Source: Candidatus Methylopumilus sp. (GTDB taxonomy: Bacteria; Pseudomonadota; Gammaproteobacteria; Burkholderiales; Burkholderiaceae_B). From it: a stretch of DNA of 37,898 nt. The position numbers were made by a program, and so were the translations under genes. The DNA is taken from NCBI GenBank assembly GCA_021738045.1, contig JAIPCU010000011.1, positions 1-37,898 on the forward strand. The letters run 5' to 3'. Shown one piece after another: positions 1,677 to 26,749 of the stretch (its first letter is position 1; each line of letters starts with the position of its first letter). Under the pieces are notes generated by a model. The model worked only from the letters and a program-made list of their open reading frames with translations. It was not told where the DNA came from and ran no database searches.

Positions 1677-1677
1677 T

Positions 1678-10850: not shown

Positions 10851-11484
10851 CATTGCTCGCGCCGTGCTCTAGGTGACGCACGTCGCCCCAGTTGATGAGT
10901 TTCCAACCGTCTTTTGAAACGCTTAAACGATTCAAGCTTGCGTTCAGCAAAGGCGCTTCGCGCGGTACGCGCAAACTGACTTGGGTAGCGTGACGCCAAA
11001 TGATATCCATGGCACCGCCGTGACTCACTACCATCACGCGTTGACCAAGATGTTTTGCTGCGATGTCATCGATCGCTTGCACGACACGTTGATGAAAAAA
11101 TCCTAACGATTCACCGCCAGGAAGTTCAGCATCGGGGTCGCGGCTGCGCCATACTTTTGCGGCTTCAGGCGCGTGTTGATCCATCTCGCTGTAGATCAAG
11201 CCTTGCAAGACGCCAAAGTGGCGCTCGCGTACACCAGGTTCGACATTGAGTGTTAAGCCCAGTGAGTCAGCCAAAATGCTAGCGGTATGGTGCGCGCGCT
11301 TGAGGTCGCTAGTGTAAATAGCATCAACGCCGTCGCCCGATGCTTTGAGCGTTTCAAGATGCTTGCCCAGTGCTTGAGCTTGCGCGATACCCTTTTCGTT
11401 TAACGGGATATCTTCCCAGCCTTGTACTCGACGTACGACATTCCATGGCGTCTCGCCGTGTCTCACTACCCAAATTTCGGTCAT
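10834..11484 (-). CDS. Histidine phosphatase family protein (phosphoglycerate mutase-like)
   Basis: A 216-aa member of the histidine phosphatase superfamily (GpmB/CobC-like). The phospho-accepting histidine is in 'VVRHGETPWN' near the N-terminus, the partner motifs are 'IYTSDLKRAHHTA' and the second catalytic His is in 'VMVVSHGGAMDIIWRH'. The start is taken at the ATG just before 'TEIWVVRHGE'; an in-frame ATG 33 nt upstream would add 11 residues without conservation. Neither has a clear ribosome site. Such proteins dephosphorylate small phosphorylated metabolites, and the substrate is not readable. It is downstream of the enamidase gene on the same strand. Its stop lies inside the 16-bp tandem repeat. 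Confidence 0.9.
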   Translation of the reverse strand: MTEIWVVRHGETPWNVVRRVQGWEDIPLNEKGIAQAQALGKHLETLKASGDGVDAIYTSDLKRAHHTASILADSLGLTLNVEPGVRERHFGVLQGLIYSEMDQHAPEAAKVWRSRDPDAELPGGESLGFFHQRVVQAIDDIAAKHLGQRVMVVSHGGAMDIIWRHATQVSLRVPREAPLLNASLNRLSVSKDGWKLINWGDVRHLEHGASNDITSS

Positions 11485-11593
11485 GCTATTTATCCAAATT
11501 GTAGAAGTTCGCGTCATTCACGGATAACGTTTGCGATAGAGGCGCTGTGCGTAGCGACAACTAGTCTGATCCGTTTGTACTGTGGTGACGACC

Positions 11594-12787
11594 TCAGTGA
11601 TGCACGACGCTCGGAATCATCGTTGCAGGAGGCGTGTTACGACTACGCCCGCAACGCACCAGCCCATCAATCATCACCATGCCAATTCCTGGGATGTCAC
11701 CAAGCTTGACGCTATCTAGCAAGTCGCGCCCAGCGGTGTGTTGCGCGCGATCCATAAAGACCAAATCAGCTGCGCGGCCAGGTTCAATCAAGCCACAGTT
11801 TAAGTCGCGCATGCGAGCGGTGTTACCCGTGGCAAAACAGAAAACGAGTTCAGGTGGGATGTTACCGAGGCTTGAAAGCAGTGCGATCATGCGCAAGATA
11901 CCGAGAGGCTGCACGCCAGAGCCCGCAGGCCCGTCAGTACCCAGAATGACGCGGTGTGGGCATTTGAGTTGCATGGCGGCTTGCGCCGCAGCAATCGCGA
12001 TTTTTTCGTTACCGTTATGGACGATTTCGATACCGCGCGTGGATTTTTCGCACAGCTCACACACGTGGGCTTCAGATAATGAAGTGTGACCGCCGTTAAT
12101 GTGGCCGATGATATCGGCGTCGGCTTCAAGTACGACATCTTTATCGATGAGGCCAGAGCCTGGGATCGAAGGCCCGCCGGTATGAATGGTGCTTTGGATG
12201 CCGTACTTTCGTGCCCAGGCCACCATCTTTTGAGCTTCTTCGCCCGCTTTGACTGAGCCCAAGCCGACTTCACCTAACAGCTTGACCCCAGCTTCAGCCA
12301 GTTCTTTGAAGTCTTGTTCGACCATGCCTTGTTCGATGACCGGTGCACCCGCTAACACTTTGACGCCACCTGGGCGAAAATTATCAAACGCGCGTTGCGC
12401 GGTGATGGCAAGTGCTTTGAGCCCGACGATATCCTTAGGGCGGCCTGGTAAATGAACTTCGCCGGCTGAAATCATTGTTGTGACACCGCCATTGAGCGTC
12501 GACTCGATCCAGCCGATTTGATTTTGGCGCGGCGTCCAATCGCCAAACACAGGATGCACATGGCTATCAATCAAGCCGGGTGCCACGCACGTATTGTGAG
12601 CGTCGATGATTGTTTTAGCGTGCGCGATGTCGCAGTCTTTTTCTTTACCGACTGCAACGATCAGCCCATCGTTGATCACAATCGTATCGGCAGACAGAAT
12701 CGGCTGGTCTAGGTCGCCTGACAACAGTAGACCAATGTTTTTGATGACGACTTTGCCTGATTTTTCGTTTGCAACGACTTCTGCCAT
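11594..12787 (-). CDS. ena: Enamidase (1,4,5,6-tetrahydro-6-oxonicotinate amidohydrolase)
   Basis: A 397-aa amidohydrolase-superfamily protein resembling E. barkeri enamidase, which opens 1,4,5,6-tetrahydro-6-oxonicotinate to 2-formylglutarate and ammonia using an Fe-Zn centre. Candidate metal ligands are His76 and His78 ('LIDSHVHP'), Glu173 in 'LGEVGLGSVK', His202 ('IHTGG'), His229 ('GHINGG') and Asp285 ('LGTDGPAGSG'). Family-specific patterns that I recall from the E. barkeri protein include 'GGVTTMISAG', 'PGRPKD' and the C-terminal 'SRNTPPA'. There is no signal peptide, so it is cytoplasmic. The ATG has a strong ribosome site (AGGAG, 6 nt upstream). It sits 170 bp downstream of the tetR gene on the same strand, with a possible promoter of its own. 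Closely related imidazolonepropionase or dihydroorotase-type enzymes lack these patterns. Confidence 0.88.
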   Translation of the reverse strand: MAEVVANEKSGKVVIKNIGLLLSGDLDQPILSADTIVINDGLIVAVGKEKDCDIAHAKTIIDAHNTCVAPGLIDSHVHPVFGDWTPRQNQIGWIESTLNGGVTTMISAGEVHLPGRPKDIVGLKALAITAQRAFDNFRPGGVKVLAGAPVIEQGMVEQDFKELAEAGVKLLGEVGLGSVKAGEEAQKMVAWARKYGIQSTIHTGGPSIPGSGLIDKDVVLEADADIIGHINGGHTSLSEAHVCELCEKSTRGIEIVHNGNEKIAIAAAQAAMQLKCPHRVILGTDGPAGSGVQPLGILRMIALLSSLGNIPPELVFCFATGNTARMRDLNCGLIEPGRAADLVFMDRAQHTAGRDLLDSVKLGDIPGIGMVMIDGLVRCGRSRNTPPATMIPSVVHH

Positions 12788-12957
12788 GTTGGTCTCCTGA
12801 CCGCTTCGTTTAATTTGTGATTTAGAAGCCGTGCGTTGAGCTCGCTTCTACCTAAATTCGTGATCTTCGCGACAATTCAATCGCCCGCTCTGCGCTCTAA
12901 CTGGTACGGGACGCTTACTATATTACCTGCGCCTAATGACGCCCATACCCGTTGAGG
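12788..12957 (-). promoter_or_regulatory. Intergenic leader of the enamidase gene with possible promoter and inverted repeat
   Basis: This 170-bp gap separates tetR from ena. On the minus strand a good -10 hexamer, TATAGT, lies at 12922-12917, although no convincing -35 is found 17 nt upstream. A perfect 7-bp inverted repeat (TAGAAGC / GCTTCTA, 14-bp spacer) lies at 12823-12850, between that -10 and the gene, and could be an operator or a leader hairpin. Its arms differ from the TGTAGCA palindrome of the divergent region. Confidence 0.35.
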
Positions 12958-13623
12958 TTACACCACGACGGTTCGTTGTACCGCATCAACAACAAAGGCT
13001 TCCCACTGCTTAAAGGTTGCCGGAGCTTCTAGATTTTCGCCTAAAAAGGCAGAGAGCGTGAAGCGATTGGATTGGTAAAAATAACCTAGAGCAGCGATCA
13101 TCATGTAGAGGTCGCGCGACGACAGGTCTTTTCGAAACACACCTTGTTCGACGCCGCACACCAAGACCTGATCCACGACCCCGATGGCGGGTGATGAATA
13201 TTCGCGGGCTTTGCTGGATTTGGCGATGTGCTTGCCGCCATGCAGATTTTCGCTGTTTAACAAGGTGACAAATTCTGGATTTTTTTTGTAGTATTGCAAA
13301 ATGAATTGCACGACTTGCTTGAGGGCGACGAGTGGCTGAGCGGTATCAAGCTTAAGGGCCGCCTCGGCGTCATTAAAGCGGCGATAGATCTCTTCAAGGG
13401 CTGCGACAAACAGGCCCTCTTTATTGCCGAAGTAGTAATAAATCATGCGGTCGTGTGAGTTGGCCGCCTTAGAGATTTGATCGATACTGCCACCATCTAG
13501 CCCATGTTTGGCAAAGATTTTGATCGCGGCGCGCAAAATATTTTCGCGCGTGGTTTCAGCCGCACGCTCTCGTACCCCGGTTTTACGCGGCGCTTTGAGA
13601 GGGGCTGAAACGCGAGTGCTCAT
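12958..13623 (-). CDS. TetR/AcrR family transcriptional regulator
   Basis: A 221-aa TetR-type repressor. The N-terminal helix-turn-helix domain lies at about residues 23-72 ('TRENILRAAIKIFAKHGLDG' then 'NSHDRMIYYYFGNKEGLF'), followed by a helical ligand-binding and dimer domain ('YYKKNPEFVTLLNSENLHGG'). A basic N-terminal tail of about 20 residues precedes the domain. Its ATG overlaps the stop of the ferredoxin reductase gene by ATGA, so the two are co-translated. It is the only regulator gene in the island, so it is the likely controller of the divergent 14.39/14.59 kb promoters. P. putida also uses a TetR-family regulator (NicS) for nicAB. The inducer is inferred to be nicotinate, 6-hydroxynicotinate or a ring-opened product. 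Confidence 0.92.
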   Translation of the reverse strand: MSTRVSAPLKAPRKTGVRERAAETTRENILRAAIKIFAKHGLDGGSIDQISKAANSHDRMIYYYFGNKEGLFVAALEEIYRRFNDAEAALKLDTAQPLVALKQVVQFILQYYKKNPEFVTLLNSENLHGGKHIAKSSKAREYSSPAIGVVDQVLVCGVEQGVFRKDLSSRDLYMMIAALGYFYQSNRFTLSAFLGENLEAPATFKQWEAFVVDAVQRTVVV

Positions 13624-14393
13624 TGTTCGACAAAGGCCCTTTCGATCACGTAGTCGCCTGGTTTGGTTGTATTGCCTTCATTAAAGCCGCGTTGCTCAAG
13701 CATGGTTTTCAAATCACGTAACAAACCCGGGCTGCCACAAATCATGATGCGATCTTGGGTGCGATCAAGCGCTGGAACACCCAAATCTTTAAAGAGTTTT
13801 TCGTTTTCGATCAGAGTCGTGATGCGGCCCATCTGCTTGTATTGTTCGCGCGTGACAGTCGGGTAATAGCGTAGCTGTTTGCTGACCATCTCACCTAAAA
13901 ACTCGTGCTTGGGTAGTTCTTGAGTGAGGTAGTCGTGATACGCGAGTTCGGCAACGTCACGCACTGAATGTACCAAAATCACTTCTTCAAATTTTTCGTA
14001 GGTTTCTGGGTCGCGAATCACGCTCAAAAACGGCGCTAAGCCCGTGCCTGACGAAAACATATATAGACGTTTGGCAGGCAACAAGTAATCGATGAGCAAC
14101 GTGCCAGTGGGTTTGCGCCCGACCACGATTGAATCACCCACCTTGATATGTTGCAGCCTCGAGGTCAGCGGCCCGTCTTCGACTTTGATGCTTAAAAACT
14201 CAAGATGCTCTTCGTAATTGGCGCTGACGATACTGTAGGCCCGTAGCAAGGGCTTGTCGTTGACGCGCAACCCGATCATTGTGAAGTGACCGTTACTAAA
14301 GCGTAAGGATGGATCTCGTGTAGTGGTGAAGCTAAACAGGCGGTCAGTCCAGTGGTGTACGGATAAAACGGTTTCTTCGTTGAAGGCGCTCAT
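13620..14393 (-). CDS. fpr: Ferredoxin--NADP reductase (Fpr-like)
   Basis: A 257-aa FAD protein of the bacterial Fpr family that exchanges electrons between NADPH and ferredoxin or flavodoxin. FAD-binding motifs are RAYSIVS (residues 51-57) and GPLTSRL (74-80). NADP-binding parts are 'SSGTGLAPFLS' (114-124) and 'ICGSPGLLRDL'. The C-terminus 'YVIERAFVEQ' resembles other subclass I bacterial Fprs. The start is ATG 14393 because the conserved N-terminus 'MSAFNEETVLSVHHWTD' begins there; a TTG 18 nt upstream is unlikely. It is divergent from hnr. The E. barkeri reductase needs low-potential electrons, so a dedicated electron-supply role is plausible. No ferredoxin gene is present in the window. 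Confidence 0.93.
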   Translation of the reverse strand: MSAFNEETVLSVHHWTDRLFSFTTTRDPSLRFSNGHFTMIGLRVNDKPLLRAYSIVSANYEEHLEFLSIKVEDGPLTSRLQHIKVGDSIVVGRKPTGTLLIDYLLPAKRLYMFSSGTGLAPFLSVIRDPETYEKFEEVILVHSVRDVAELAYHDYLTQELPKHEFLGEMVSKQLRYYPTVTREQYKQMGRITTLIENEKLFKDLGVPALDRTQDRIMICGSPGLLRDLKTMLEQRGFNEGNTTKPGDYVIERAFVEQ

Positions 14394-14447
14394 GGTCGGT
14401 TCGGGTATCAAAATCTTGTTAAGTCAGGGGCAAGCCCAATAAAAACA

Positions 14448-14476
14448 TTGCAGGCTGACAAGGGATGCATTAAATT
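14448..14476 (+). promoter_or_regulatory. Possible sigma-70 promoter of the hnr operon
   Basis: TTGCAG (14448-14453) and TAAATT (14471-14476) are separated by 17 bp and read toward hnr. The match is partial (3/6 and 4/6). It is favoured because a start site near 14483 would fall at the edge of the palindromic operator region, which fits repression by the TetR protein. The same region read on the minus strand has TTTAAT as a possible -10 toward fpr. Confidence 0.35.
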
Positions 14477-14481
14477 AAACA

Positions 14482-14529
14482 ATAAATGTAGTGAACACAA
14501 CACTAAATTGTAGCAAATGCTACATTTAT
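14482..14529. promoter_or_regulatory. Palindromic operator region between fpr-tetR and hnr
   Basis: Two nested symmetric elements lie in the 200-bp divergent gap. The first is a perfect 16-bp palindrome TGTAGCAAATGCTACA at 14509-14524. The second is a perfect 10-bp inverted pair ATAAATGTAG (14482-14491) and CTACATTTAT (14520-14529). The half-site TGTAG recurs at 14487 and 14509, 22 bp apart, which is about two helical turns. A weaker pair, TGTAGTG (14487) and CACTAAA (14501), overlaps. This is what tandem sites for a TetR dimer would look like; binding itself is inferred. Confidence 0.6.
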
Positions 14530-14593
14530 CTTAACCCCTGAAGCGCAATTTAGGCAATGACTAAAGTGCAATAAGCCTTTAACCCGATTCTCA

Positions 14594-16183
14594 ATGACTG
14601 AACACACGAAAACCGACGGACTCTCGGTGCAGGCGCCCGCGGCAACGACGCAGGGCGATGATGCGCCATCCGTCAACCACGCACGCGCAGCGGGTACAGT
14701 CAAAATCGAGTGCAATGCGTGCCCTGTTTTGTGTCAGATTAGCCCCGGTCGCAGCGGCGCTTGCGACCGCTATGCCAATCAAGACGGCATGCTGATTCGA
14801 GTAGATCCAGTTTTAGTCTTAAACCGCGCCTTGAAAGGTGTTGAGCCAGCCTTGGTGCCGTTTGCACCCAGCACTTCTGAAGAAGCTTGGGCTGGCGACC
14901 TGATGCATGCCAACGACATTTTCATTACCGGCGTTGGGTCATCAACCACCTACCCAGATTACAAGCCCGCCCCGTTTATCGTGGGTTCGCAGATTGACGG
15001 TGTCGATATGGTGACGGTTGTCACCGAAGGCATCTTTAGTTATTGCAGCTTAAAAATTAAAATTGATACCGACCGCTATTTGGGGCCTGAGCAGGCCAAT
15101 GTGCTGTGCAGGGGCGAGGTAGTGGGTCACGTGACTACCGCCGAGTACGGTTCGCAAATGCTGTCTTTGGGTGGCGTGCACCACCTCACGGGAGGCAGCA
15201 AAAAAGAGGGTCGCGTCACCATGGAGATGATGCAGGCCCTGGGCAATAAAGAGGCCGCCGAATTAAATATCGAGGGCGGAGCGAATCTCGTGATTCAGGC
15301 TGGGCGCGCGCCGATTGTGAATGGCGTGGTCGAACAGCGCATGCGGGTCGGTTGCGGTTCGGCTGCAATCGGTATTTTTGCGCAACAGTTTTTTGAATTA
15401 GCCGACGAGGTCGTGGTGGTCGACGATCACATCACGGGCGTCTTGACCGAGCACCAGGCGGGCTGTTGTTTGAATATGCGCCCGTCGGGGATTTCGATTC
15501 GAGGTCGTCGTTCAACTCCAGGGCGCTATTTTCAAGTGGCCAATCCCGGAACGGGGTGGGGCGGTACCGACATTTCAGATCCCTTGGCCGTGATTGAAAA
15601 GTGGGATCCAAAACGTGCTTGGCCCGGTTTGCGGTTACTCATGACCTCAACCACCGGTGAACACGCTGCCTGGTTCGTGCTCGACGAGAATTTGACCCCA
15701 CAGCAACAAGAGATGCCGACTGCGGTGCAAACGGTCATCGACCGTATCGGTGAAAATTGTGAACCGTCCATGACGACGGTGCTGTTCTTGGGCGGGGCCG
15801 GTGGTAGCTTACGTGCCGGTGTCACAGACAATCCGGTGTTACTCACGCGTGCAATTAAACAAGCCTTGGTCAACGTGACCTGTGGCGGTGCACCGGCCTA
15901 TGTCTGGCCCGGCGGAGGGATTACCGTGATGGTTGACGTACTGCGTATGCCGGACAACAGCTTCGGCACCGTGCCCACACCCGCGATTGTGGCGCCGTTC
16001 GAATTTAGTATGCGTGTCGAAGATTTTAAAAATTTGGGTGGCCACATGTCTTATGTGCGGCCTCTTGATGTCGTGTTGCGCAGCGGCGCTTGGCACGCTG
16101 ATGGTGCGCCGACTGCGCGTCAGTGGGTGATGCAGCCGACTCAAAACCCTTGGCCCCTTGGCCAGCCGCCGCAGCTAGGATAA
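14594..16183 (+). CDS. hnr: 6-hydroxynicotinate reductase
   Basis: A 529-aa iron-sulfur protein resembling E. barkeri 6-hydroxynicotinate reductase, which reduces 6-hydroxynicotinate to 1,4,5,6-tetrahydro-6-oxonicotinate. The E. barkeri enzyme contains covalent flavin, one [2Fe-2S] and two [4Fe-4S] clusters. Here an N-terminal cluster motif is clear: Cys40, Cys43, Cys47 and Cys57 in 'IECNACPVLC' and 'GACDRY'. Seven further cysteines (151, 172, 254, 291, 292, 389, 430) give 11 in total. Glycine-rich parts include 'GVGSSTTYPDYKP', 'FLGGAGGSLRAGVTDNP' and 'YVWPGGGIT'. No canonical ApbE flavinylation motif is visible. The first 30 residues look unconserved; no ribosome site is evident before ATG 14594, and no better start exists. 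It heads a 12-kb operon and is 6 nt from the next gene. Confidence 0.88.
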   Translation: MTEHTKTDGLSVQAPAATTQGDDAPSVNHARAAGTVKIECNACPVLCQISPGRSGACDRYANQDGMLIRVDPVLVLNRALKGVEPALVPFAPSTSEEAWAGDLMHANDIFITGVGSSTTYPDYKPAPFIVGSQIDGVDMVTVVTEGIFSYCSLKIKIDTDRYLGPEQANVLCRGEVVGHVTTAEYGSQMLSLGGVHHLTGGSKKEGRVTMEMMQALGNKEAAELNIEGGANLVIQAGRAPIVNGVVEQRMRVGCGSAAIGIFAQQFFELADEVVVVDDHITGVLTEHQAGCCLNMRPSGISIRGRRSTPGRYFQVANPGTGWGGTDISDPLAVIEKWDPKRAWPGLRLLMTSTTGEHAAWFVLDENLTPQQQEMPTAVQTVIDRIGENCEPSMTTVLFLGGAGGSLRAGVTDNPVLLTRAIKQALVNVTCGGAPAYVWPGGGITVMVDVLRMPDNSFGTVPTPAIVAPFEFSMRVEDFKNLGGHMSYVRPLDVVLRSGAWHADGAPTARQWVMQPTQNPWPLGQPPQLG

Positions 16184-16188
16184 CCAAC

Positions 16189-17073
16189 ATGGGGCCGACA
16201 TCGCACGAGCTGCCGCAAGGTCGTCGCCATTTTCAGCATGGGCCGATTGATATCATTGCTTACGCCGAGGGCGATCCAGTCAGCGTAGCGCACGCCCACG
16301 AAACCGCCTGGCAGCGGTTTGGGCAAATTTTGCCTGAGCTCGTTCAAGAGTTAGCTGATTTACGTAAACCTGTCCAAGGCGCCGGCACGTTCAAAGGGCC
16401 GATCGCCCAGTCGATGTGGCGAGCGTGTAAAGACTGTTTAATTGAATTGGATGCAGACGCGTTTTTAACGCCGATGGCTGCAGTCGCTGGTTCGGTCGCG
16501 CAGGATCTAAGTACGTGTTATCAGGCTGCGGGGATCAAGCGCGCCTGGGTCAATAACGGAGGCGATATTGCGCTGCATCTCACTGAAGACACAGCCGTTT
16601 CAATTGGGCTGTTTGCCGACCTGGCGCGCCTGGATGGGCAACAATTGGTGAGTGGCATTCAGACCGACGCCATGTTCGAAGTGAAATACGGCATGGGGAT
16701 CCGTGGCGTCGCCACCAGCGGTTGGCGCGGGCGAAGTTTTTCGCTGGGTATTGCCGACAGTGTGACGGTGTTTGCGGCAAGTGCCTCGCAGGCGGACGCC
16801 GCGGCGACGCTGATTGCGAATGCGGTCGATGTTGCCGACGCACGTATCAAGCGGCAGCCCGCTAACGCCTTAAAAGATGATTCTGATTTAGGTCAGCGGC
16901 TGGTGACGGTTGCTGTGCCAGAGTTAGGTCAAGAGGAGATTCATGAGGCGCTTGAAGCGGGCTTAAAAAAAGCCCACACGCTCAGGCAGAACGGTTTAAT
17001 CTGTGCCTGTGTTTTAAGTTGTCAGGGGTGGTTTGTCAGTACTGAAACGGCCCTAATCCAGCGTATGTTATGA
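16189..17073 (+). CDS. UPF0280 family protein (ApbE superfamily); candidate flavin transferase for Hnr
   Basis: A 294-aa UPF0280 protein (COG2122), a relative of the FAD:protein FMN transferase ApbE. ApbE-like signs are 'NNGGDI' (residues 122-127), 'ATSG' (175-178) and 'SVTVFA' through 'ADAAATL' (191-208), which matches the C-terminal ApbE pattern. The His-Ile-Ile-Asp-Pro segment of true ApbE is not present. UPF0280-type parts are 'GAGTFKGPIAQSMW' and 'TPMAAVAGSVAQ'. There is no signal peptide, so it should be cytoplasmic, unlike typical ApbE. The start is ATG 16189, preceded by AGGA; the gene lies 6 nt after hnr and 7 nt before the DUF1185 gene. Function is unproven. The inference that it attaches flavin to Hnr rests on superfamily, linkage, and the covalent flavin known for E. 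barkeri Hnr. Confidence 0.85.
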   Translation: MGPTSHELPQGRRHFQHGPIDIIAYAEGDPVSVAHAHETAWQRFGQILPELVQELADLRKPVQGAGTFKGPIAQSMWRACKDCLIELDADAFLTPMAAVAGSVAQDLSTCYQAAGIKRAWVNNGGDIALHLTEDTAVSIGLFADLARLDGQQLVSGIQTDAMFEVKYGMGIRGVATSGWRGRSFSLGIADSVTVFAASASQADAAATLIANAVDVADARIKRQPANALKDDSDLGQRLVTVAVPELGQEEIHEALEAGLKKAHTLRQNGLICACVLSCQGWFVSTETALIQRML

Positions 17074-17080
17074 GGTGATC

Positions 17081-17665
17081 ATGCAAGCAAAAATTCGTAG
17101 GATCGTCGTGCAAATCGACGAGGTGTGGGTTGAGAACGGTCAACCTGTATCGCCCCCCGTACGGCGTGCGCTAGCCATGGCGGTTATCGAGAATCCCTTT
17201 GCCGGGCGGTATGTTGAAGATCTAGATGCACTGATGACGGTTGGGCAAGAACTTGGTGCCTTACTCGGGCAGCGTTGCGTGCAAGCGCTGGGCATCAAAC
17301 CCGGCGAGGCTCAAAGCTACGGCAAGGCAGCTATCGTGGGTGAGGCGGGTGAGCTTGAGCACGCTGCTGCGATTTTGCATCCAAAATTAGGGGCGCCGCT
17401 ACGTGTGGCAGTTGAAAAGGGCGCCGCACTGGTGCCTTCGAGTAAAAAAATGGGTGCGATGGGTGCGACGATTGATGTGCCGCTCGGACACAAAGACGCA
17501 GCTTACGTACGCAGTCATTTTGATGCGATCGAAGCGCGTGTCACCGATGCGCCGCGCGCCAACGAGATCGTGGTGTGTGTCGCCGTCACCGATAGCGGCC
17601 GTCCCAACCCTCGGGTGGGTGGTTTGAAGCATCAGGACATGATTGGTAAAGATGGTTTGAATTGA
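17081..17665 (+). CDS. DUF1185 / 'amino acid synthesis' family protein (PF06684)
   Basis: A 194-aa cytoplasmic protein of the PF06684 (DUF1185) family. Typical patterns are 'ALAMAVIENPFAGRY', 'GKAAIVGEAGELEHAAA', 'GATIDVPLGHKDAAYVRSHF' and the C-terminal 'VAVTDSGRPNPRVGGL'. As I recall, the first solved structures of this family show a variant of the chorismate-mutase-like fold and no reaction has been established; the database name 'amino acid synthesis' is weakly founded. The start is ATG 17081 with GAGG five nt upstream; GTG 17075 is the alternative. Its tight placement behind hnr and UPF0280 suggests a role in reduced-ring metabolism, for example as a maturation factor or as an isomerase/deaminase on an unstable enamine or aldehyde. 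That is inference. Confidence 0.88.
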   Translation: MQAKIRRIVVQIDEVWVENGQPVSPPVRRALAMAVIENPFAGRYVEDLDALMTVGQELGALLGQRCVQALGIKPGEAQSYGKAAIVGEAGELEHAAAILHPKLGAPLRVAVEKGAALVPSSKKMGAMGATIDVPLGHKDAAYVRSHFDAIEARVTDAPRANEIVVCVAVTDSGRPNPRVGGLKHQDMIGKDGLN

Positions 17666-17724
17666 GTATTGAAACGTTGAAACATTGATAGCCAGGGCAT
17701 GTGCCCGATAAACAGGAGAGTACG

Positions 17725-18939
17725 ATGAAACAGCACCGACTCAGTATCTTTGCAAGGCTCAGTATCGCGGCAGCGACACTGCTAACCGCCTCATCAACGC
17801 TGTTGGCGCAAGGCGTCATCAAAATCGGCGAAATCAATAGCTATAAGGCCCAGCCTGCTTTTCTTGAGCCCTACAAAAAAGGTATGGAACTCGCGATCGA
17901 GCAGATCAACGCGACTGGCGGTTTGAATGGTAAAAAAGTTGAACTCATCACCCGCGACGATAACGCTAACCCAGGGGATGCCGTGCGAGTGGCCGAAGAG
18001 CTCGTGTCGCGCGATCGGGTCGATGTGTTGACTGGATCTTTTTTGTCGCATATCGGCTTGGCCCTGACTGATTTTTCGAAACAAAAGAAAGTGTTCTTTT
18101 TGGCCAGTGAGCCTTTGACTGACAAGATTGTCTGGCAAAACGGTCATCGCTATACGTTCCGTTTGCGTACCTCAACGTACATGCAGGTGGCGATGCTTGT
18201 GCCAGACGCCGTCGCGATGAAGAAAAAACGCTGGGCCATCGTTTACCCCAATTATGAATATGGTCAATCAGCAGTCGCAAGTTTCAAAGAACTGATGAAA
18301 GCGGCGCAACCAGATGTTGAATTTGTGGCCGAGCAAGCCCCGCCGTTAGGTAAGTTAGACGCGGGCAGTGTGGTGCAGGCGTTGTCCGATGCTAAGCCAG
18401 ACGCTATTTTTAACGTCTTATTCGGTGCTGATTTGGCTAAGTTTGTTCGTGAGGGTAACACCCGAGGCTTATTTAAAAATCGCGAAGTGGTGAGCTTGCT
18501 GACGGGTGAGCCTGAATACCTTGATCCACTCAAAGACGAAACCCCCGACGGTTGGTTAGTGACCGGTTATCCGTGGTACGGCATCAAAACGCCAGAGCAT
18601 GCGGCGTTCTTGAAGGCATATCAAGATAAGTTCAAAGATTACCCACGCCTGGGCTCGGTCGTCGGTTACAGCGCCATCATGTCGCTTGCCGCTGGTATTA
18701 AAAAGGCTCAAGGCACAGACACTGAAAAGCTTGTCGATGCCTTTAAAGGGTTGAATCTGATGACGCCGTTCGGCCCAATTACCTACCGACCCGAAGACCA
18801 TCAGTCGACGATGGGTAGTTTTGTTGGCCGCACGAAAAACGAAGGTGGCAAAGGTGTGATGGTCGATTTTCGCTTCTTAGATGGCGCTAAATTCTTGCCG
18901 TCAGCTGAAGAGGTTAAAAAATTGCGGCCTGCTCAATAA
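17725..18939 (+). CDS. ABC transporter substrate-binding protein, branched-chain (LivK) type
   Basis: Periplasmic binding protein (404 aa) of the leucine/amide/urea type. The signal peptide is residues 1 to about 29: basic start (MKQHRLSIFAR), hydrophobic core, cleavage near 'LLAQ'. The mature part begins 'GVIKIGEINSYKAQPAF' and has 'LELAIEQIN'-like helix 'GMELAIEQINATGGLNGKK', then 'DDNANPGDAVRVAEELVSRD', all typical of the family. The start is ATG 17725 with the ribosome site AGGAG. It lies in the hnr-nicB transcription unit, 59 nt after the DUF1185 gene, and precedes matching permease and ATPase genes. Members in catabolic operons commonly bind aromatic carboxylates, so nicotinate or 6-hydroxynicotinate is the likely ligand by context. 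Confidence 0.93.
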   Translation: MKQHRLSIFARLSIAAATLLTASSTLLAQGVIKIGEINSYKAQPAFLEPYKKGMELAIEQINATGGLNGKKVELITRDDNANPGDAVRVAEELVSRDRVDVLTGSFLSHIGLALTDFSKQKKVFFLASEPLTDKIVWQNGHRYTFRLRTSTYMQVAMLVPDAVAMKKKRWAIVYPNYEYGQSAVASFKELMKAAQPDVEFVAEQAPPLGKLDAGSVVQALSDAKPDAIFNVLFGADLAKFVREGNTRGLFKNREVVSLLTGEPEYLDPLKDETPDGWLVTGYPWYGIKTPEHAAFLKAYQDKFKDYPRLGSVVGYSAIMSLAAGIKKAQGTDTEKLVDAFKGLNLMTPFGPITYRPEDHQSTMGSFVGRTKNEGGKGVMVDFRFLDGAKFLPSAEEVKKLRPAQ

Positions 18940-19000
18940 GCAGTTTTTAATTGACTGTGACTTGGCAAGCGTTGAACGCTGATTGTTGAATGGGCGATTG

Positions 19001-20893
19001 ATGGACTTATCTGGTTTTGTTGTTCAGTTGCTCAATGGCCTGGCTGGGGCTTCGTCGCTCTTTTTAGTTTCAGCTGGGCTGTCGCTCATCTTTGGTGTGA
19101 CACGAATCGTGAACTTTGCTCACGGTTCGTTTTTTATGGTGGGCATTTATGTTGCCTACACCCTAGTGACGCGCTTTGCCGATACGATCGGCTTTTGGCC
19201 CGCGTTGGTGTGCGCGGCGCTAATCGTTGGTGTGCTTGGCGCACTGGTTGAAATCACCCTGATGCGCCGTATCTATCGTGCGCCCGAGTTGTTTCAATTA
19301 CTGGCCACCTTCGCCTTGGTCTTAGTGTTTAAAGATGCTGTGTTGTGGCTCTGGGGTCCTGAAGAGCTGTTAGGCCCACGCGCACCCGGGTTAAAGGGCG
19401 CGGTACAAATCTTAGGGCGTAGTTTCCCCGCTTACGATTTATTTTTAATTGTTGTCGGACCCGTGCTGTTGGGCTTGCTGTGGCTGTTATTGACCCGTAC
19501 CCGCTGGGGTACGTTTATTCGCGCTGCCACACAAGATCGCGAGATGGTTGCAGCGCTTGGGGTCAATCAAGCGTGGTTGTTTACCAGCGTGTTCGCGTTA
19601 GGCGCTCTATTGGCGGGTTTGGGCGGTGCCTTACAACTGCCACGCGAACCCGCAAGCCTTGAGATGGATCTCAACACGATTGGCGCTGCGTTTGTGGTGG
19701 TGGTGGTGGGTGGAATGGGCTCGATCCCCGGCGCTTTTGTGGCTGCATTGTTGATCGCTGAGTTAAAAGCCATTTGCATTTGGTTGGGTGTGGTCAATAT
19801 TTTTGGTACGGCGATCTCGTTTTCAAAGCTTACGTTGGTGGTCGAGTTTTTAGTGATGGCTGTGGTGTTGGTGCTGCGTCCCTGGGGGTTGTTGGGCAGA
19901 CCACAGCCGCCCTCGCGGCACGCCGCGCATGTCGAGGCGCCCTTAGGTGCTCCCACACGTTTGACGACTACCTTGCAGTTAGCGGCCGTAGGTCTGTTGG
20001 TATTGCTGCCATGGCTGACCTCGGCTTCGCCTTATTTTACGGTGCTGAGTATTGATTTGTTGGTTGCCGTGTTGTTTGCGACCAGCTTGCACTTCATCAT
20101 GGGGCCTGCCGGTATGCATTCGTTTGGTCATGCGGCGTATTTTGGTTTAGGTGCGTATGGCGCCGCACTCTTGTTTAAAGCCCTTGGGTTACCAATGGAG
20201 ATTGCATTGCTGTTGGCACCACTTGTGGCTGGCGTAGGTGCGTTGGTATTTGGCTGGTTTAGTGTGCGGTTATCGGGCGTCTATCTGGCGATGTTGACCT
20301 TGGCCTTCGCGCAAATTACATGGGCCGTGGTGTTTCAGTGGGATGCCCTGACCGGTGGCAGCAATGGGTTGACGGGCGTCTGGCCGGCAGCATGGCTAAC
20401 TGACAAAAAAAATTATTATTTTTTGACACTCTCGTGTGTCGTCTCAAGTGTTTGGTTGTTGCGGCGTATGTTGTACGCGCCTTTGGGTTATGCCATGCGC
20501 GCGGGTCGAGATTCACCGATGCGCGCCGATGCAATTGGCATCCATGTCAAACGCGTGCAATGGGTCGCTTTCGTGATCGCTGGTGTTTTTGCGGGTGTAG
20601 CCGGCGCGCTTTTCGCTTTTTCTAAAGGCAGCATCTCGCCCGAGACCTTACATGTCAGTCGTTCGGTGGATGGCTTGGTGATGGTATTGCTTGGTGGTAT
20701 CCAGACCTTGGCGGGCCCGATCGTGGGCGCTGTCAGTTTTACGTGGTTGCATGATGTCATCGCACGCAACACTGAGTATTGGCGCGCGATGCTAGGTGGC
20801 ATTATCTTGTTACTGGTGTTGTTATTTCCCGAAGGGATTGCAGGCTTTGCCCGTCGTATCAATTTGCGTCTTGCAGACAAGGGGCAAGCATGA
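19001..20893 (+). CDS. Fused branched-chain-type ABC permease (LivH-LivM in one chain)
   Basis: A 630-aa inner-membrane protein that joins both permease subunits of a Liv-type importer. Residues 1 to about 295 are LivH-like ('LIFGVTRIVNFAHGSFFMVG', 'GALLAGLGGALQLPREP', 'GGMGSIPGAFVAALL'). A short linker at about 295-325 ('LLGRPQPPSRHAAHVEAPLG') follows. Residues 325-630 are LivM-like ('FIMGPAGMHSFGHAAYFGLG', 'VRLSGVYLAMLTLAFAQ', 'KGSISPETL', 'VMVLLGGIQTLAGPIVGA'). The start is ATG 19001; a TTG at 18983 is possible. The stop overlaps the ATPase start by ATGA. No frameshift or internal stop is seen, so the fusion appears genuine. Confidence 0.93.
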   Translation: MDLSGFVVQLLNGLAGASSLFLVSAGLSLIFGVTRIVNFAHGSFFMVGIYVAYTLVTRFADTIGFWPALVCAALIVGVLGALVEITLMRRIYRAPELFQLLATFALVLVFKDAVLWLWGPEELLGPRAPGLKGAVQILGRSFPAYDLFLIVVGPVLLGLLWLLLTRTRWGTFIRAATQDREMVAALGVNQAWLFTSVFALGALLAGLGGALQLPREPASLEMDLNTIGAAFVVVVVGGMGSIPGAFVAALLIAELKAICIWLGVVNIFGTAISFSKLTLVVEFLVMAVVLVLRPWGLLGRPQPPSRHAAHVEAPLGAPTRLTTTLQLAAVGLLVLLPWLTSASPYFTVLSIDLLVAVLFATSLHFIMGPAGMHSFGHAAYFGLGAYGAALLFKALGLPMEIALLLAPLVAGVGALVFGWFSVRLSGVYLAMLTLAFAQITWAVVFQWDALTGGSNGLTGVWPAAWLTDKKNYYFLTLSCVVSSVWLLRRMLYAPLGYAMRAGRDSPMRADAIGIHVKRVQWVAFVIAGVFAGVAGALFAFSKGSISPETLHVSRSVDGLVMVLLGGIQTLAGPIVGAVSFTWLHDVIARNTEYWRAMLGGIILLLVLLFPEGIAGFARRINLRLADKGQA

Positions 20894-22422
20894 GTCTGTT
20901 GACAGTGAAAGACTTGGGTAAGTCCTTTGGCGGGGTAAAGGCCGTTGATGGCATTTCGTTTGAGCTTAAAGCAGGTGAGTTGTTGGCCTTGATTGGCCCG
21001 AATGGCGCCGGCAAATCAACTACCTTCAACATGGTCAATGGTCAATTGCAGGCTGATCGCGGGTCGATTCAGTTGGCTGGAAAAGAGTTAGTTGGCCTTG
21101 CGCCACGAGACATTTGGCGTTTAGGGGTGGGCCGCACGTTTCAAATTGCCGAAACGTTTTCGTCGCTGACAGTGATCGAAAACGTGCAGATGGCCTTGCT
21201 CTCGCATGCCGGGCAGGTGTTTTCGTTTTTTCAGACTGCGCGTACGCACGAACGTACCCGGGCGCTTGAGTTGCTTGAACAGGTTGGGATGGCGTCGCAA
21301 GCAGACCGCCCCTGCAGCGCGTTGGCCTACAGCGATGTCAAACGTGTCGAGTTGGCGATCGCGTTGGCCAATCGTCCGCGACTTTTGCTGATGGATGAAC
21401 CCACAGCAGGCATGGCACCGAAAGAGCGCAACGCGTTGATGGCATTAACCAAAAAATTGGTGATTGAGCAAAACATTGCGGTGCTGTTTACCGAGCACAG
21501 TATGGATGTGGTGTTCGCCCACGCCGACCGCATCATTGTCTTGGCGCGCGGGCGACTGATTTCACAGGGTACGTCCAACGAGGTTCGTCAAGATTTTAAA
21601 GTGCAAGAGGTGTACTTTGGCTCTGGCGCGACGTTTGAAAATGAGACGGTAGTCTCGGACGTTCATGCCAAGACGGCGACAAGTACCCCTGATCATGCGG
21701 ATCCGCTTCTGTCTGTGCAGAGTCTATGCGCTTGGTACGGCGCCGCTCAAATTCTGTATGACGTAAATGTTGAAGTGAAACGCGGTGAAGTCGTGGCGTT
21801 GATGGGGCGTAACGGGGCGGGCAAGTCGACCACCATGAAAGCGTTAATGGGTTTGCTTGAAAAGCGTACTGGCGACGTGCAATTTATGGGGCGCGAGATT
21901 TCAAAAGATGCAGCGCATCGTATTGCGGCCAGTGGACTAGGCTATGTGCCTGAGGATCGGCGCATTTTTACCGATCTCACGGTTTTAGAGAATCTCGAGG
22001 TTGGTCGGCAAAAGGGGCGGTTGTGGCCCGATGGTTCTGCGGCCCCAACCTGGACCGTGCAGCAGTTGTTTGCACTTTTTCCGAATCTGGGTGAGATGCC
22101 CAGACGCCCAGGCGGGCAGATGAGTGGTGGTGAACAACAAATGCTGACCGTAGCGCGAAGCTTGATGGGTAACCCTTACTTGGTGCTGCTTGATGAGCCA
22201 TCTGAAGGTGTGGCACCTGTGATTGTTGAGCAAATGGTACAGATGATTTTGGCATTGAAAAAGCAAGGCGTCAGTATTTTGCTATCAGAACAAAATCTGC
22301 ACTTTGCGCGCCTAGTGTGCGACCGCGCCTATGTGCTTGAAAAAGGGCAAATCCGTTTTAGCGGCACGATGACCGAGCTCGATGCTAACGAGCATGTACG
22401 TCAAACCTATTTAAGCGTCTAG
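20890..22422 (+). CDS. Fused branched-chain-type ABC ATPase (LivG-LivF in one chain)
   Basis: A 510-aa protein with two nucleotide-binding domains. The LivG-like half has Walker A GPNGAGKS (residues 36-43), 'ERTRALELLEQVGM' and Walker B 'LLLMDEPTAGMAP'. Its signature loop is 'LAYSDVKRVELA', which departs from LSGGQ and has Ser where the LivG family usually has Gly. The LivF-like half has Walker A GRNGAGKS (306-313), 'GLGYVPEDRRIFTDLTVLEN', signature 'MSGGEQQML' and Walker B 'LVLLDEPSEGVAP'. A linker of about 30 residues joins them. The start ATG 20890 overlaps the permease stop. With the fused permease this yields an importer made from three polypeptides rather than five. Confidence 0.94.
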   Translation: MSLLTVKDLGKSFGGVKAVDGISFELKAGELLALIGPNGAGKSTTFNMVNGQLQADRGSIQLAGKELVGLAPRDIWRLGVGRTFQIAETFSSLTVIENVQMALLSHAGQVFSFFQTARTHERTRALELLEQVGMASQADRPCSALAYSDVKRVELAIALANRPRLLLMDEPTAGMAPKERNALMALTKKLVIEQNIAVLFTEHSMDVVFAHADRIIVLARGRLISQGTSNEVRQDFKVQEVYFGSGATFENETVVSDVHAKTATSTPDHADPLLSVQSLCAWYGAAQILYDVNVEVKRGEVVALMGRNGAGKSTTMKALMGLLEKRTGDVQFMGREISKDAAHRIAASGLGYVPEDRRIFTDLTVLENLEVGRQKGRLWPDGSAAPTWTVQQLFALFPNLGEMPRRPGGQMSGGEQQMLTVARSLMGNPYLVLLDEPSEGVAPVIVEQMVQMILALKKQGVSILLSEQNLHFARLVCDRAYVLEKGQIRFSGTMTELDANEHVRQTYLSV

Positions 22423-22430
22423 GGTCTGTG

Positions 22431-22934
22431 ATGAACACTTCGTCACCCTGTACGCTGCGTGTCAATGCTCAGCAACATGAGTTACAACTGTCAGCGGATG
22501 TGTCGTTGATGCATGTGTTGCGTAATGACCTTGCGCTGAATGGACCAAAATATGGTTGTGGCTTGGGTCAGTGCGGCGCTTGTACTGTGCTAATCGATGG
22601 GGTCGCTGCGCGCTCATGCGTGGTGCCCGCACAAGGTGTACAAGGCCGCGCCGTGACCACCCTTGAAGGGCTGGGGTCGCGCGGGCAGTTGCACCCTGTG
22701 CAGCAGGCTTTTATTGACGAGCAAGCTGCGCAATGTGGGTATTGTCTCAATGGCATGATTATGATGACGGTGTCTCTGTTAACGCATACACCTGACCCCA
22801 CTGAGGCTGAAATCCGAAGTGCACTATCGGGTAACTTTTGCCGCTGTGGCACGCACATTGAAATCATGCGTGCGGTGCAGCGCGCGGCCGTGCTGATGCA
22901 CACCTCGCACGGGCTCGATCATGGCAAATCCTAA
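22431..22934 (+). CDS. nicA: Nicotinate hydroxylase small subunit, 2x[2Fe-2S] (NicA-like)
   Basis: A 167-aa iron-sulfur subunit of the xanthine-dehydrogenase family. The N-terminal plant-type [2Fe-2S] domain shows 'YGCGLGQCGACTVLIDG' followed by the fourth Cys in 'ARSCVVPAQG'. The C-terminal alpha-helical [2Fe-2S] domain shows 'QCGYCLNGMIM' and 'GNFCRCGTH'. Size and order match NicA (157 aa in P. putida), which passes electrons from the molybdenum centre to the large subunit's hemes. The start is ATG 22431 with AGGG upstream; it lies 8 nt after the ATPase gene. Its end overlaps nicB by 14 nt. Nicotinate specificity is inferred from NicB architecture and from hnr and ena in the same cluster. 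Confidence 0.9.
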   Translation: MNTSSPCTLRVNAQQHELQLSADVSLMHVLRNDLALNGPKYGCGLGQCGACTVLIDGVAARSCVVPAQGVQGRAVTTLEGLGSRGQLHPVQQAFIDEQAAQCGYCLNGMIMMTVSLLTHTPDPTEAEIRSALSGNFCRCGTHIEIMRAVQRAAVLMHTSHGLDHGKS

Positions 22935-25900
22935 GCCTTTACGTACCCGTGCAGATTTTTTAAATGCGACCGACGTATTGTTGGTGGTGCGTGAGCCGCC
23001 GCCTGCCAATCCACCCGCGCCAGGCCAACCTGCAGCGGTGCCGGGTAACCCTGCCGAGGGCGTTGAAATCGTGCTGTCGCTGTGGGCAGACGGCCGAGTG
23101 ATCGCCTTGCATGGTCACGTTGATCTTGGCACCGGACTTCAAACCGCGTTTGCTCAGATCGTGGCTGAAGAGCTTGACGTGCAGCTTGAGCAGGTTGAAG
23201 TCATTTTGGGCGATACCGGTACTGCGCCCAATCAGGGTCCTACTATTGCCAGCGGTTCGATTCAAAATCATGCCGCGCCTCTTCGGGCCGCTGCGGCTCA
23301 AGCGCGCCAATATTTGCTTGAGTTGGCCGCAGCTAAATTTGCAGTGCCTACGACGCAATTACAAGTGAGCAATGGAATCGTGTCCATTGCGGCTGTCGCA
23401 AGCGCAGACACGACGGCGTCTGCCGCTTCAGTCAGCTATGCGGAGTTACTCACTGGCCAGCACATTCACCTCAAGCTTGAACTGAGTACGCCAGTCAAAG
23501 ACCCCGCAACCTACCGCACGGTCGGGCAGTCAGTGCCGCGTGTAGACATCCCAGCCAAGGCGACGGGTGAGCTAGTGTTCGTGCACGATGTGCGAGTGCC
23601 CGGCATGTTGCATGGCCGAGTGATTCGTCCACCTTATGCCGGCGCCGATCACGGTGACTTTATTGGTAACTTGCTTGAGTCAGTTGACGAGACGTCGATT
23701 GCCCATATCCCAGGCATTCGTGCGGTGGTCGTGATTCGGGATTTTATTGGGGTCGTCGCCGAACGCGAAGAGTTCGCTGAGCTCGCCGCCAACACGCTAC
23801 GGGTGCATTGGAAACCCTGGGCCGGCTTGCCCGACTTATCCAATGTTGAGCAAGCGTTGCGTAACAATCCAGCGACACCACGCCAGCTTGTCGATGAGGG
23901 TGATGTGGATCAGGCGCTTGCAGAGGCCGCGCAGTCGATGCCGCGCACTTATATTTGGCCTTATCAAATGCACGCCTCAATTGGTCCGTCGTGCGCCGTG
24001 GCTGAGTTCAAAACGGATCCGACCGATCCGTTTACCTTAACAGTGTGGGCTGGCACGCAAAATCCTCATGTGTTGCGCGCAGACTTAGCGCGCTTAACTG
24101 CACTGCAAGATACTGCGATTGAAATCATACGGATGGAAGCCTCTGGTTGCTACGGACGCAACGGTGCGGACGATGTGGCGGCAGATGCGGTGTTGCTGGC
24201 GCGCGCAGTCGGTGCACCCGTGCGCGTACAGCTCACGCGTGAGCAAGAAAATCTATGGGAGCCCAAAGGTGCGGCGCAATGGATGGAGGTCCGCGGTGGC
24301 TTGCATGCAGACGGCTCGATTGCAGCCTATGATTTTTCAACCTCTTACCCTTCAAACGGAGCACCCACGCTTGCGCTATTACTGACGCGCACGCTTGAAC
24401 CCAACGCACAAGCCTATGCAATGGGGGATCGCACCGCGCGTCCGCCCTATACCTTGCAAAATTTGCGCGTCACTGTGAATGATATGCCGCCCATTTTGCG
24501 CGCCTCGTGGTTGCGTGGCGTGTCGGCGATGCCCAATTCGTTTGCGCACGAATCTTATATTGACGAACTTGCGACGGCGGCTGGGGTCGATCCTTTGACC
24601 TTCAGATTGCGTTATCTCGATGACCCACGCGCGCGCGAATTGTTACAAGCCACTGCCGCAAAAGCAGGCTGGAAAACGCATGACCAGCCACAGCAGCTGG
24701 GTGCAGAGGGCGATATTTTGCACGGGCAGGGCATCGCCTGGGCCCGCTATGTGCATAGCAAGTGGCCAGGATTTGGTGCGGCGTGGGCCGCGTGGATCGC
24801 TGATGTTGAGGTCAATAAGCGCACCGGTGAAGTGCATGTCAAACGGGTGGTGGTGGGTCACGATGCGGGCTTGACCATTAATCCTGCTGGTGTTGAGCAT
24901 CAAATTCACGGCAATGTGGTTCAAACCACCAGTCGCGCCATGATTGAACAGGTGCCAATTGAACGTGAGCGTAATACTGTTGCCACCCGCGAATGGGGTT
25001 CGTATCCGATTTTGAGTTTCAGGCAAGTGCCTGTGATCGAAGTCATGCAGATGCCTCGGAACAATGAGCCCGCACTTGGGGCGGGCGAGTCAGCCTCGGT
25101 ACCCGGTACGGCGGCGATTGCCAACGCGATTTTCGATGCGACAGGTGTGCGCTTCAGGCAACCGCCTTTCACGCCAGAGGTTGTGCGCGCTGCTTTGAAT
25201 CCTTTGATGTATCAAGGCGACTCAGACTCCAACGCCTGCGGCAATCCTCAGCTGGCAGCGCAAGCCTCAGACAAACTTCAGTTAGCTTCGCAAGCAAGTG
25301 ACCCGCTGCAAGCAAGCCCTGTGCGTCAACAGACAGATCATGCCGACGCGCGTTGGCCCAAGCCGCGTACGTGGTGGTTGCGTGCGGCTGCGTTGACGGC
25401 GGCGCTGGGTACCACGCTGCTTGGCGCGACGTGGTCACTGTTCGGTCAGCGCACTGCGCTTGCGCCAGTGACCCAACCGATCGCGACCTACTCGGCTGCA
25501 ACGCTTGAGCGTGGTCGTGAATTAGCGGCCTTGGGTAATTGCGTGACTTGCCATACCAGTGCGCAAGGTAAACCAAATGCTGGCGGCTTGGGGATTCAAA
25601 CTCCCTTCGGCACGGTCTATAGCACTAACTTAACGCCTGATCCTCAAACCGGTATCGGTTTGTGGTCACAGCAAGCCTTTAATCGTGCCATGCGTGAAGG
25701 CATCTCGCGCGATGGGCAGCACTTGTACCCCGCGTTTCCATACACCTCGTTCACTCGCACGACTGACGAAGATCTGACCGCGTTATATGGGTGGCTGATG
25801 TCGCAAGAGCCGGTGCGCCAGGCAACGCCTGAAACTAAGCTTGCGTTTCCGTTTAGTTTGCGTCCGCTCATGGCCTTTTGGAATGCGCTGTACTTAACGC

Positions 25901-26682
25901 CCGGGGCTTCTACCAAGCCAACGAAAACCGAAGTTGAGCGTTCGCCGGCGTGGTTGCGGGGTGAATATCTGGTGAATGGGTTGGGGCATTGTTCGGCCTG
26001 TCACACCTCACGCGATGCGTTGGGTGGCGAGCGCTCAGGGCTAGCGTACTTAAGCGGCGCCACCGTTGATGGCTGGCTGGCCCCAGCCCTCAATGCGCGC
26101 TCGCCCAGCCCAGTGCCCTGGACTGAAACAGCCTTTTATGATTACTTACGTGACGGCCATAGCGCCGAACACGGCAGCGCCTCGGGGCCGATGGCCCCGG
26201 TCGTCAGGCAATTAGCGCAAGTCCCTGACGCCGATATTTCTGCCATGGCCCACTACTTGGCGTCGTTTCAAGAGCAAAGCGCCTCGGCACTGACCGCTCA
26301 AACTTACGTCGCTCAGGCCGCCGCGCGAGAGCCTTTGCTGCTTGGCCCCGCACAGCGTATGTTTCAGGCCGCCTGTGCCTCGTGTCACCACGACGGCGAT
26401 GGCCCGCGTTTACTTGGCGTCAATATCCCGCTGGCGCTAAGCACTGGTATGCACAGCGCGCAACCTGATAACGTGATTCGCGTGATCCTAGAGGGGATTC
26501 GCAAACCCGCCAGCGAGCAAATCGGCTTTATGCAAGGTTTTGCCAAGCAGTTTGACGATCGACAATTGAGCGAATTAGTGTCTTACATGCGTAGCCGTTT
26601 TGCCCCCACTCAGCCGCCCTGGCAAGATCTCGAACAGAAAATTGGGGTAATCCGTATGTCACCAAGCTTGCATTTACCGTAA
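22921..26682 (+). CDS. nicB: Nicotinate hydroxylase large subunit, molybdopterin plus tri-heme cytochrome c (NicB-like)
   Basis: A 1253-aa protein; P. putida NicB is of similar length and design. Residues 1 to about 770 are the molybdopterin-binding part ('[17 protein letters not shown]' near 210, '[18 protein letters not shown]', '[12 protein letters not shown]'). The catalytic glutamate is Glu723 in '[10 protein letters not shown]'. A Gln/Ala/Ser-rich linker (about 775-810) precedes one transmembrane helix (818-842) flanked on its N-side by Arg/Lys. Then come three c-type heme motifs: CVTCH (874-878), CSACH (1024-1028) and CASCH (1152-1156). It should convert nicotinate to 6-hydroxynicotinate with electrons going to the cytochrome chain. 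There is no signal peptide. A related specificity for another N-heteroaromatic is possible. No XdhC-type maturation gene is nearby. Confidence 0.9.
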
Positions 26683-26712: not shown

Positions 26713-26749
26713 ACCCCGGTTCTGACCCGAGCCGGGGTTTTGCTTTTTT
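26713..26749 (+). terminator. Strong intrinsic terminator after nicB, immediately upstream of greA
   Basis: A 7-bp stem (ACCCCGG / CCGGGGT, 12-nt loop) is followed directly by a T-rich tract (TTTTGCTTTTTT). It ends the hnr-nicB transcript 31 nt after the nicB stop. The T-tract stops 10 nt before the greA ATG, so any greA promoter upstream of it must read through the hairpin. A weak promoter-like pair (TTTACC 26673-26678, TAGAGA 26696-26701, 17-bp spacing) lies upstream of it. Confidence 0.88.

Follow-up and report, generated by a model that had tools for sequence, protein, structure and literature searches.

The window analysed here is a stretch of 37,898 nucleotides from Candidatus Methylopumilus sp. 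(contig JAIPCU010000011.1 of assembly GCA_021738045.1; G000:C192 in our numbering), a betaproteobacterial host whose draft genome comprises 2.96 Mb in 218 contigs and is 82% complete. Positions 11594 to 26682 hold a real and well-made catabolic island, a known type met in a new host. Its minus strand carries three genes, for enamidase, a TetR regulator and a ferredoxin-NADP reductase; the eight plus-strand genes are hnr (for a homologue of 6-hydroxynicotinate reductase, Hnr), a UPF0280 gene, a PF06684 gene, three importer genes, nicA and nicB. The UPF0280 protein as a partner of Hnr is a new, testable lead. An initial annotation had delimited the island at 11594 and 26682, which coincide exactly with the ends of the enamidase and nicB genes, and had named a NicAB-type hydroxylase, Hnr, enamidase, ferredoxin reductase, TetR regulator and importer, all of which are present by homology; it overlooked the UPF0280 and PF06684 genes. 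The features are as follows, with expectation values given as E.

11594..12787, minus strand: enamidase (ena) homologue; 2vun, E 5e-112; predicted to convert 1,4,5,6-tetrahydro-6-oxonicotinate to 2-formylglutarate
12958..13623, minus strand: TetR-family regulator (TetR_C_29, RutR-like); TetR_C_29, E 4e-40
13620..14411, minus strand: ferredoxin-NADP reductase, predicted electron supply of Hnr; NF008178, FAD_binding_6 and NAD_binding_1
14486..14503, strand not applicable: operator-like palindrome, distal copy; 2 mismatches to ATGTAG-N6-CTACAT
14508..14525, strand not applicable: operator-like palindrome, proximal copy; 1 mismatch, 22 bp from the distal copy
14594..16183, plus strand: hnr homologue, 529 amino acids; 7 invariant Cys and a DDHITG[VI]L[TS] segment
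16123..17073, plus strand: UPF0280/COG2122 protein, ApbE-like fold (model and Foldseek); NF003322, 355 bits against a cut-off of 290; the true start is probably the ATG at 16189, 6 bases past the hnr stop
17075..17665, plus strand: PF06684 (DUF1185, 'amino acid synthesis') protein; E 5e-73
17701..18939, plus strand: substrate-binding protein of an ATP-binding cassette (ABC) importer, LIV/urea type; Pfam/NCBIfam matches
18983..20893, plus strand: fused ABC importer permease, UrtB-like and UrtC-like halves; Pfam/NCBIfam matches
20779..22422, plus strand: fused ABC importer ATPases, UrtD-like and UrtE-like halves; Pfam/NCBIfam matches
22428..22934, plus strand: nicA-like hydroxylase subunit; two [2Fe-2S] domains
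22921..26682, plus strand: nicB-like molybdenum subunit joined to a cytochrome c part with three haem motifs; domains MoCoBD_1, MoCoBD_2 and cytochrome c
26714..26747, plus strand: GC-rich inverted repeat followed by T-runs, read by eye; likely the terminator of the island operon

Predicted nicotinate route and its regulation

The enamidase is identical to the E. barkeri enzyme (2vun) at 183 of 380 residues (48%) in a gapless alignment; both proteins have HVH, GEVGLG, HTGG and HINGG, and the Asp of GTDGP/GNDAP is aligned. We take these to be metal-site motifs. Hnr was recognised by its 58-73% identity to plasmid proteins that bear the annotation 6-hydroxynicotinate reductase; its nearest named relative belongs to an Alcaligenaceae metagenome-assembled genome (locus L050, 95% identity), which suggests that the host too is probably a member of the Alcaligenaceae. 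Seven Cys residues (40, 43, 47, 57, 151, 254 and 389) are invariant in 13 of 13 and in 40 of 40 Hnr proteins, and the protein carries a CX2CX3CX9C motif. Weak likenesses were seen between Hnr residues 152-187 and the C-terminal barrel of GcvT (GCV_T_C; 13 of 13 members, best E 5e-4), and between residues 34-66 and the AmmeMemoRadiSam cysteine motif (AmmeMemoSam_rS; 8 of 13 members, best E 0.009).

The hydroxylase was classed as NicAB-type by domain and motif matches: it consists of a 2Fe-2S subunit and a molybdenum subunit with cytochrome c haems (CXXCH at residues 874, 1024 and 1152). The closest solved relative of the haem part is the cytochrome subunit of an aldehyde dehydrogenase (8gy3_A, E 2e-91) and the other closest solved relative of NicB is the large subunit of that same enzyme; the substrate therefore cannot be read from the structure match. 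A MoaA-type gene for molybdenum cofactor synthesis is present in the host genome, and a Pfam scan of the 19 island and right-flank open reading frames gave no FAD_binding_5 protein. The ferredoxin-NADP reductase matched NF008178 with 152 bits (E 2e-44), under the curated cut-off of 390.

By the proposed scheme, nicotinate or a related acid would be taken up by the ABC importer and hydroxylated by NicAB to 6-hydroxynicotinate, the electrons passing to cytochrome c and the respiratory chain. Hnr would then reduce 6-hydroxynicotinate to tetrahydro-6-oxonicotinate (THON) with low-potential electrons drawn from NADPH via the ferredoxin reductase, and enamidase would hydrolyse THON to ammonia and 2-formylglutarate; the steps after 2-formylglutarate would lie outside the island. 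UPF0280, with its ApbE-like fold, would serve as a dedicated maturation partner of Hnr, and PF06684 is guessed to have an assembly or processing role in the same pathway. The TetR protein would repress the divergent promoter at the ATGTAG-N6-CTACAT palindromes, of which it is the natural candidate binder. This palindrome, with two or fewer mismatches, stands in the 300 bp upstream of hnr at 74 of 79 named loci (defined below), in many cases as a pair of sites spaced by 22 bp; of the background windows, 18 of 4428 have it. The proximal site (14508-14525) is the sole place in the host genome with at most one mismatch, against two for the reversed pattern, and the sole exact copy of the 16-bp core, against eight. 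This conserved operator makes the regulon testable.

The nicotinate fermentation cluster of E. barkeri is reported (Alhapel 2006) to contain a reductive branch with Hnr and enamidase. That branch is the likeness to our island, with the enamidase compared directly; it differs in that the hydroxylase here has a NicB-type molybdenum subunit with cytochrome c in place of a split four-part selenium enzyme with a flavin adenine dinucleotide (FAD) subunit, and in that an NCBIfam scan of the 29 open reading frames of the window gave no match to the later B12-dependent steps. The nic cluster of Pseudomonas putida (NicAB then NicC; PMC10269826) shares the NicAB-type entry step, whereas the Hnr/enamidase branch stands here in place of NicC. 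The host genome has 11 FAD_binding_3 matches, the three long ones being two Ubi hydroxylases and one MhpA-like protein.

The initial annotation had paired NicAB with the reductive branch, cited Azorhizobium as a proteobacterial precedent and called the full gene set poorly described. The pairing recurs: NicAB-like genes adjoin hnr at 62 of the 80 named loci and at 7 of the 26 unnamed ones. The combination was already known, having been printed in 2012 (PMC3511419) for Azorhizobium (AZC_2804-2790), B. japonicum (blr3818-3830), R. palustris HaA2 (RPB_1671-1658) and strain SG-6C. Hnr, enamidase, hydroxylase, ABC transporter and two proteins termed conserved and unknown stand together in that Azorhizobium caulinodans/Bradyrhizobiaceae cluster, whose Hnr is given as 42% identical to that of E. 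barkeri; we found no difference in kind from our island, apart from the betaproteobacterial host here. The two conserved proteins may correspond to UPF0280 and PF06684.

Taken whole, the reading as a nicotinate catabolic island of the Azorhizobium (THON) type, with a TetR operator and UPF0280 as Hnr partner, is in our judgement very probable; its pathway part is well supported by homology and conserved gene order. Several results pull the other way. Neither Pfam nor NCBIfam gave Hnr a family match at E 0.001, its best PDB sequence match had E 0.39, and it has no solved relative; its AlphaFold model is poor (predicted local distance difference test, pLDDT, 62; predicted template modelling score, pTM, 0.56) and gave no Foldseek match in PDB at E 0.001 (best 0.47). 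The palindrome was counted in the very loci that had yielded the motif, and the two matches in the window are by themselves not significant (mean 0.69, with 14 of 100 shuffles reaching two). For SG-6C, which carries the cluster and grows on nicotinate with transient 6-hydroxynicotinate, PMC3511419 reports that THON was not detected and that no metabolite was seen from 6-hydroxynicotinate.

The substrate might instead be another N-heterocyclic acid, such as a substituted nicotinate or another pyridine carboxylate, since substrate ranges are unreadable from sequence, and the hydroxylase next to Hnr is of two kinds; SG-6C also channels 6-chloronicotinate into the same route via 6-hydroxynicotinate (PMC3511419). 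We consider this quite improbable, as the three catabolic enzymes fit the nicotinate route in order and the same cluster is found in the nicotinate-growing SG-6C of that paper. The nicotinate island illustrates how an aerobe could couple an oxidative, respiration-linked entry to reductive ring attack and hydrolytic opening of the pyridine ring, a type of pathway already known.

Spread of the gene set and pairing of UPF0280 with Hnr

Searches covered an order sample of 300 genomes, a phylum sample of 398 Pseudomonadota genomes and 72,556 plasmid records; a scan of public genomes further gave at least 581 stretches with an Hnr relative, the best 80 of which underlie the named-locus counts. Because the genomes compared are related, their counts should not be read as independent trials; among the 26 plasmids with Hnr, for example, 12 are from Sulfitobacter. 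At E 0.001, 26 of the 300 order genomes gave an Hnr match, of which two were doubtful (weak matches in G006 and G064, neither with UPF0280, which were dropped); Hnr was also found in 32 of 398 Pseudomonadota genomes (host included) and on 26 of 72,556 plasmids. Among the best 80 of the at least 581 stretches, 76 have Burkholderiales-level names and 4 are called only betaproteobacterium or bacterium. Paraburkholderia xenovorans LB400 (L117) is a named example with the cluster.

Of the named loci, 48 span 20 kb or more. All 48 have UPF0280, PF06684 and the permease, 47 have the ATPase and 47 NicA, 46 have enamidase and 46 TetR, 42 have the molybdenum part of NicB, 39 the binding protein and 36 the ferredoxin reductase. 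Most relatives have a tandem pair of PF06684 genes (about 36-47% and 72-81% identical to that of the window), and a single one is seen in the window and its nearest loci (L050-L052). Besides the NicAB-like hydroxylase, a more distant kind lies beside hnr at 1 of 80 named and 18 of 26 unnamed loci, and no hydroxylase was found in the stretch at 17 named loci (most of them short or cut) and 1 unnamed locus. The distant kind replaces the usual one at loci L040-L049 and L226-L236; both cases examined have an FAD subunit (L040 by Pfam and Sulfitobacter, L240, by annotation).

UPF0280 is closely tied to Hnr. The same 32 of 398 genomes of the phylum sample carry both (UPF0280 above its cut-off), on one contig and within about 0.5 kb in each; weak UPF0280 matches under the cut-off in two further genomes (G594 and G665) were not counted. 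In the order sample, 22 of 23 convincing Hnr genomes besides the host have UPF0280, the exception (G126) having an hnr cut by the contig edge, and in 4 of the 22 (G029, G118, G157 and G284) the two genes lie apart, up to another contig. UPF0280 lies within 400 bases at 77 of the 78 named loci with at least 900 bases to the right of hnr, and about 0.5 kb away at the remaining one (L084); it follows hnr at 24 of 26 unnamed loci, being 504 bases on at one of the others and unlinked at the last. All 26 plasmid records with Hnr also have UPF0280. A 27th record, Hydrogenophaga BPS33, contains UPF0280 at four places; at the one examined, the gene lies behind IS1071 and is preceded by what looks like a C-terminal remnant of hnr (lowest E 2e-8, though from seven queries against a target of just 1.45 kb). 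Literature searches turned up no published link between UPF0280 and Hnr.

On the same BPS33 plasmid (L238, 9062-30522), a block of about 10.8 kb recurs next to IS1071 transposases; it contains UPF0280, a MarR gene, a Rieske oxygenase and proteins of the tripartite transporter type.

Fold and candidate roles of UPF0280

The predicted model of UPF0280 is confident (pLDDT 90, pTM 0.88). With this model, Foldseek placed DVU1097 (2o34), a solved COG2122 member, at the first two ranks, and ranks 3 to 41 went to structures of ApbE, Ftp or FmnB; at E 0.001, 12 of 14 matches are ApbE-type and the other two are DVU1097. In a sequence profile search, 2o34 was the sole convincing match. NNGGD, D225 and T229 are each conserved in 13 of 13 diverse UPF0280 proteins (T229 is replaced by Ser in 3 of 36 close ones), and these residues resemble what we take to be the ApbE metal site. 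The Hnr of E. barkeri is reported to have a covalently bound flavin in addition to its clusters (Alhapel 2006). No canonical ApbE (PF02424) protein was found in the host genome, 82% complete, and Methanosarcina acetivorans has both ApbE and UPF0280 matches.

From the close co-occurrence with Hnr and the model's matches to ApbE flavin transferases, we propose, leaning only slightly towards it, that UPF0280 matures Hnr in some way. That it does so by attaching flavin is a tentative proposal that falls a little short of even chances, and we hold somewhat more loosely still the broader idea that UPF0280/COG2122 forms a second branch of the ApbE superfamily, located in the cytosol, which attaches flavin to Hnr and, by extension, matures DUF39 similarly in homocysteine synthesis. 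If true, an orphan family so far characterised by genetics alone would gain a function. A cytosolic ApbE dedicated to one soluble reductase has a precedent in Klebsiella, and the ApbE target motif is given as D-x-x-[ST]-G-A-[ST] (both PMC12052999). The nearest likeness in Hnr is DDHITG[VI]L[TS], one residue longer, which occurs in 80 of 80 Hnr proteins (last position Ser in 5 of 80, and in 5 of the 13 Hnr proteins of a smaller alignment), and Thr281 or Thr/Ser285 of DDHITGVL[TS] is perhaps the attachment site.

This flavin role has evidence to contend with. The exact target motif occurs in 0 of 80 Hnr proteins; the template modelling scores (TM-scores) of UPF0280 to ApbE types are only 0.34-0.49; and, unlike ApbE, Ftp and FmnB, whose fold it shares with remote similarity, UPF0280 matched no Pfam family, PF02424 included, and has no invariant His in its alignment that could correspond to the ApbE active-site His (V. 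cholerae H257). An ApbE-like flavin site has also been doubted in print.

UPF0280 may instead be a sulfur-trafficking or iron-sulfur maturation factor for the clusters of Hnr and no flavin transferase, a role that the CX2CX3CX9C motif and seven invariant Cys of Hnr would suit. In its favour, COG2122 and DUF39 act together in homocysteine synthesis, the fitness of DvMF_0044 tracks DUF39 (r = 0.98 over 170 experiments) and a persulfide role has been suggested (PMC5764234), and MA1715 is termed a sulfur trafficking protein (PMC12068725). Set against it, none of the Cys residues is kept in all 13 diverse UPF0280 proteins (10 of 13 at best), although in the closer set Cys300 is kept in 36 of 36 and Cys102 in 34 of 36; the residues of the presumed ApbE-like metal site are kept in 13 of 13; and no DUF39 was found in the 398 Pseudomonadota genomes, whereas elsewhere it is the partner of COG2122. 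A Synechococcus control with DUF39 and no UPF0280 match counts against a strict DUF39-COG2122 pairing. The protein of our island belongs to this same family of Desulfovibrio and Methanosarcina, but there it goes with DUF39 in homocysteine synthesis and here with Hnr (PMC5764234 and PMC12068725 for the former). On balance we regard the sulfur role as unlikely, though it keeps a real share of the probability.

The pairing could also merely reflect joint transfer of a whole operon without functional coupling, as the island is mobile, being on 26 plasmids and absent from 9 listed same-family genomes, and the share of Sulfitobacter among these plasmids makes the counts dependent. We judge this rather improbable, because other island genes are lost, split or swapped (the ferredoxin reductase kept at 36 of 48 loci, the hydroxylase of two kinds) while UPF0280 stays, and because UPF0280 is kept even in the four genomes where it lies apart from hnr. 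The link between UPF0280 and Hnr matters more than the island itself: UPF0280/COG2122 has genetic roles in the sulfur metabolism of anaerobes but no known reaction, and since its constant partner is an enzyme that can be assayed colourimetrically, what it does can be tested directly.

Genomic setting of the island

The island lies within a conserved core block of genes, into which it was probably inserted. The gene order carA, carB, SDR, greA is found in 10 of 10 same-family stretches (chosen from 26 genomes), and a phosphoglycerate-mutase-like gene precedes greA in 8 of these 10, at a distance of 1.6-7.5 kb compared with 15.2 kb in the window, where the island fills the gap. From the conserved order and the position of the mutase-like gene, we regard the SDR (9274-10032) and mutase-like (10834-11517) genes as native neighbours, and the SDR gene was rejected as an island member on the same synteny. 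In 24 further same-family greA loci, examined with 1.5-kb flanks, carB directly precedes greA in 2. None of the 9 listed same-family genomes has Hnr.

Between carB and the SDR gene lies a family III CoA-transferase gene (7979-9163), which in L051 also adjoins the same SDR and mutase-like genes; its product could activate glutarate downstream of the nicotinate pathway, or be unrelated. An open reading frame of 144 amino acids at 10208-10642 has no Pfam or NCBIfam match, and the left edge of the window (12-2475) holds a partial SsuA/TauA-type ABC importer operon.

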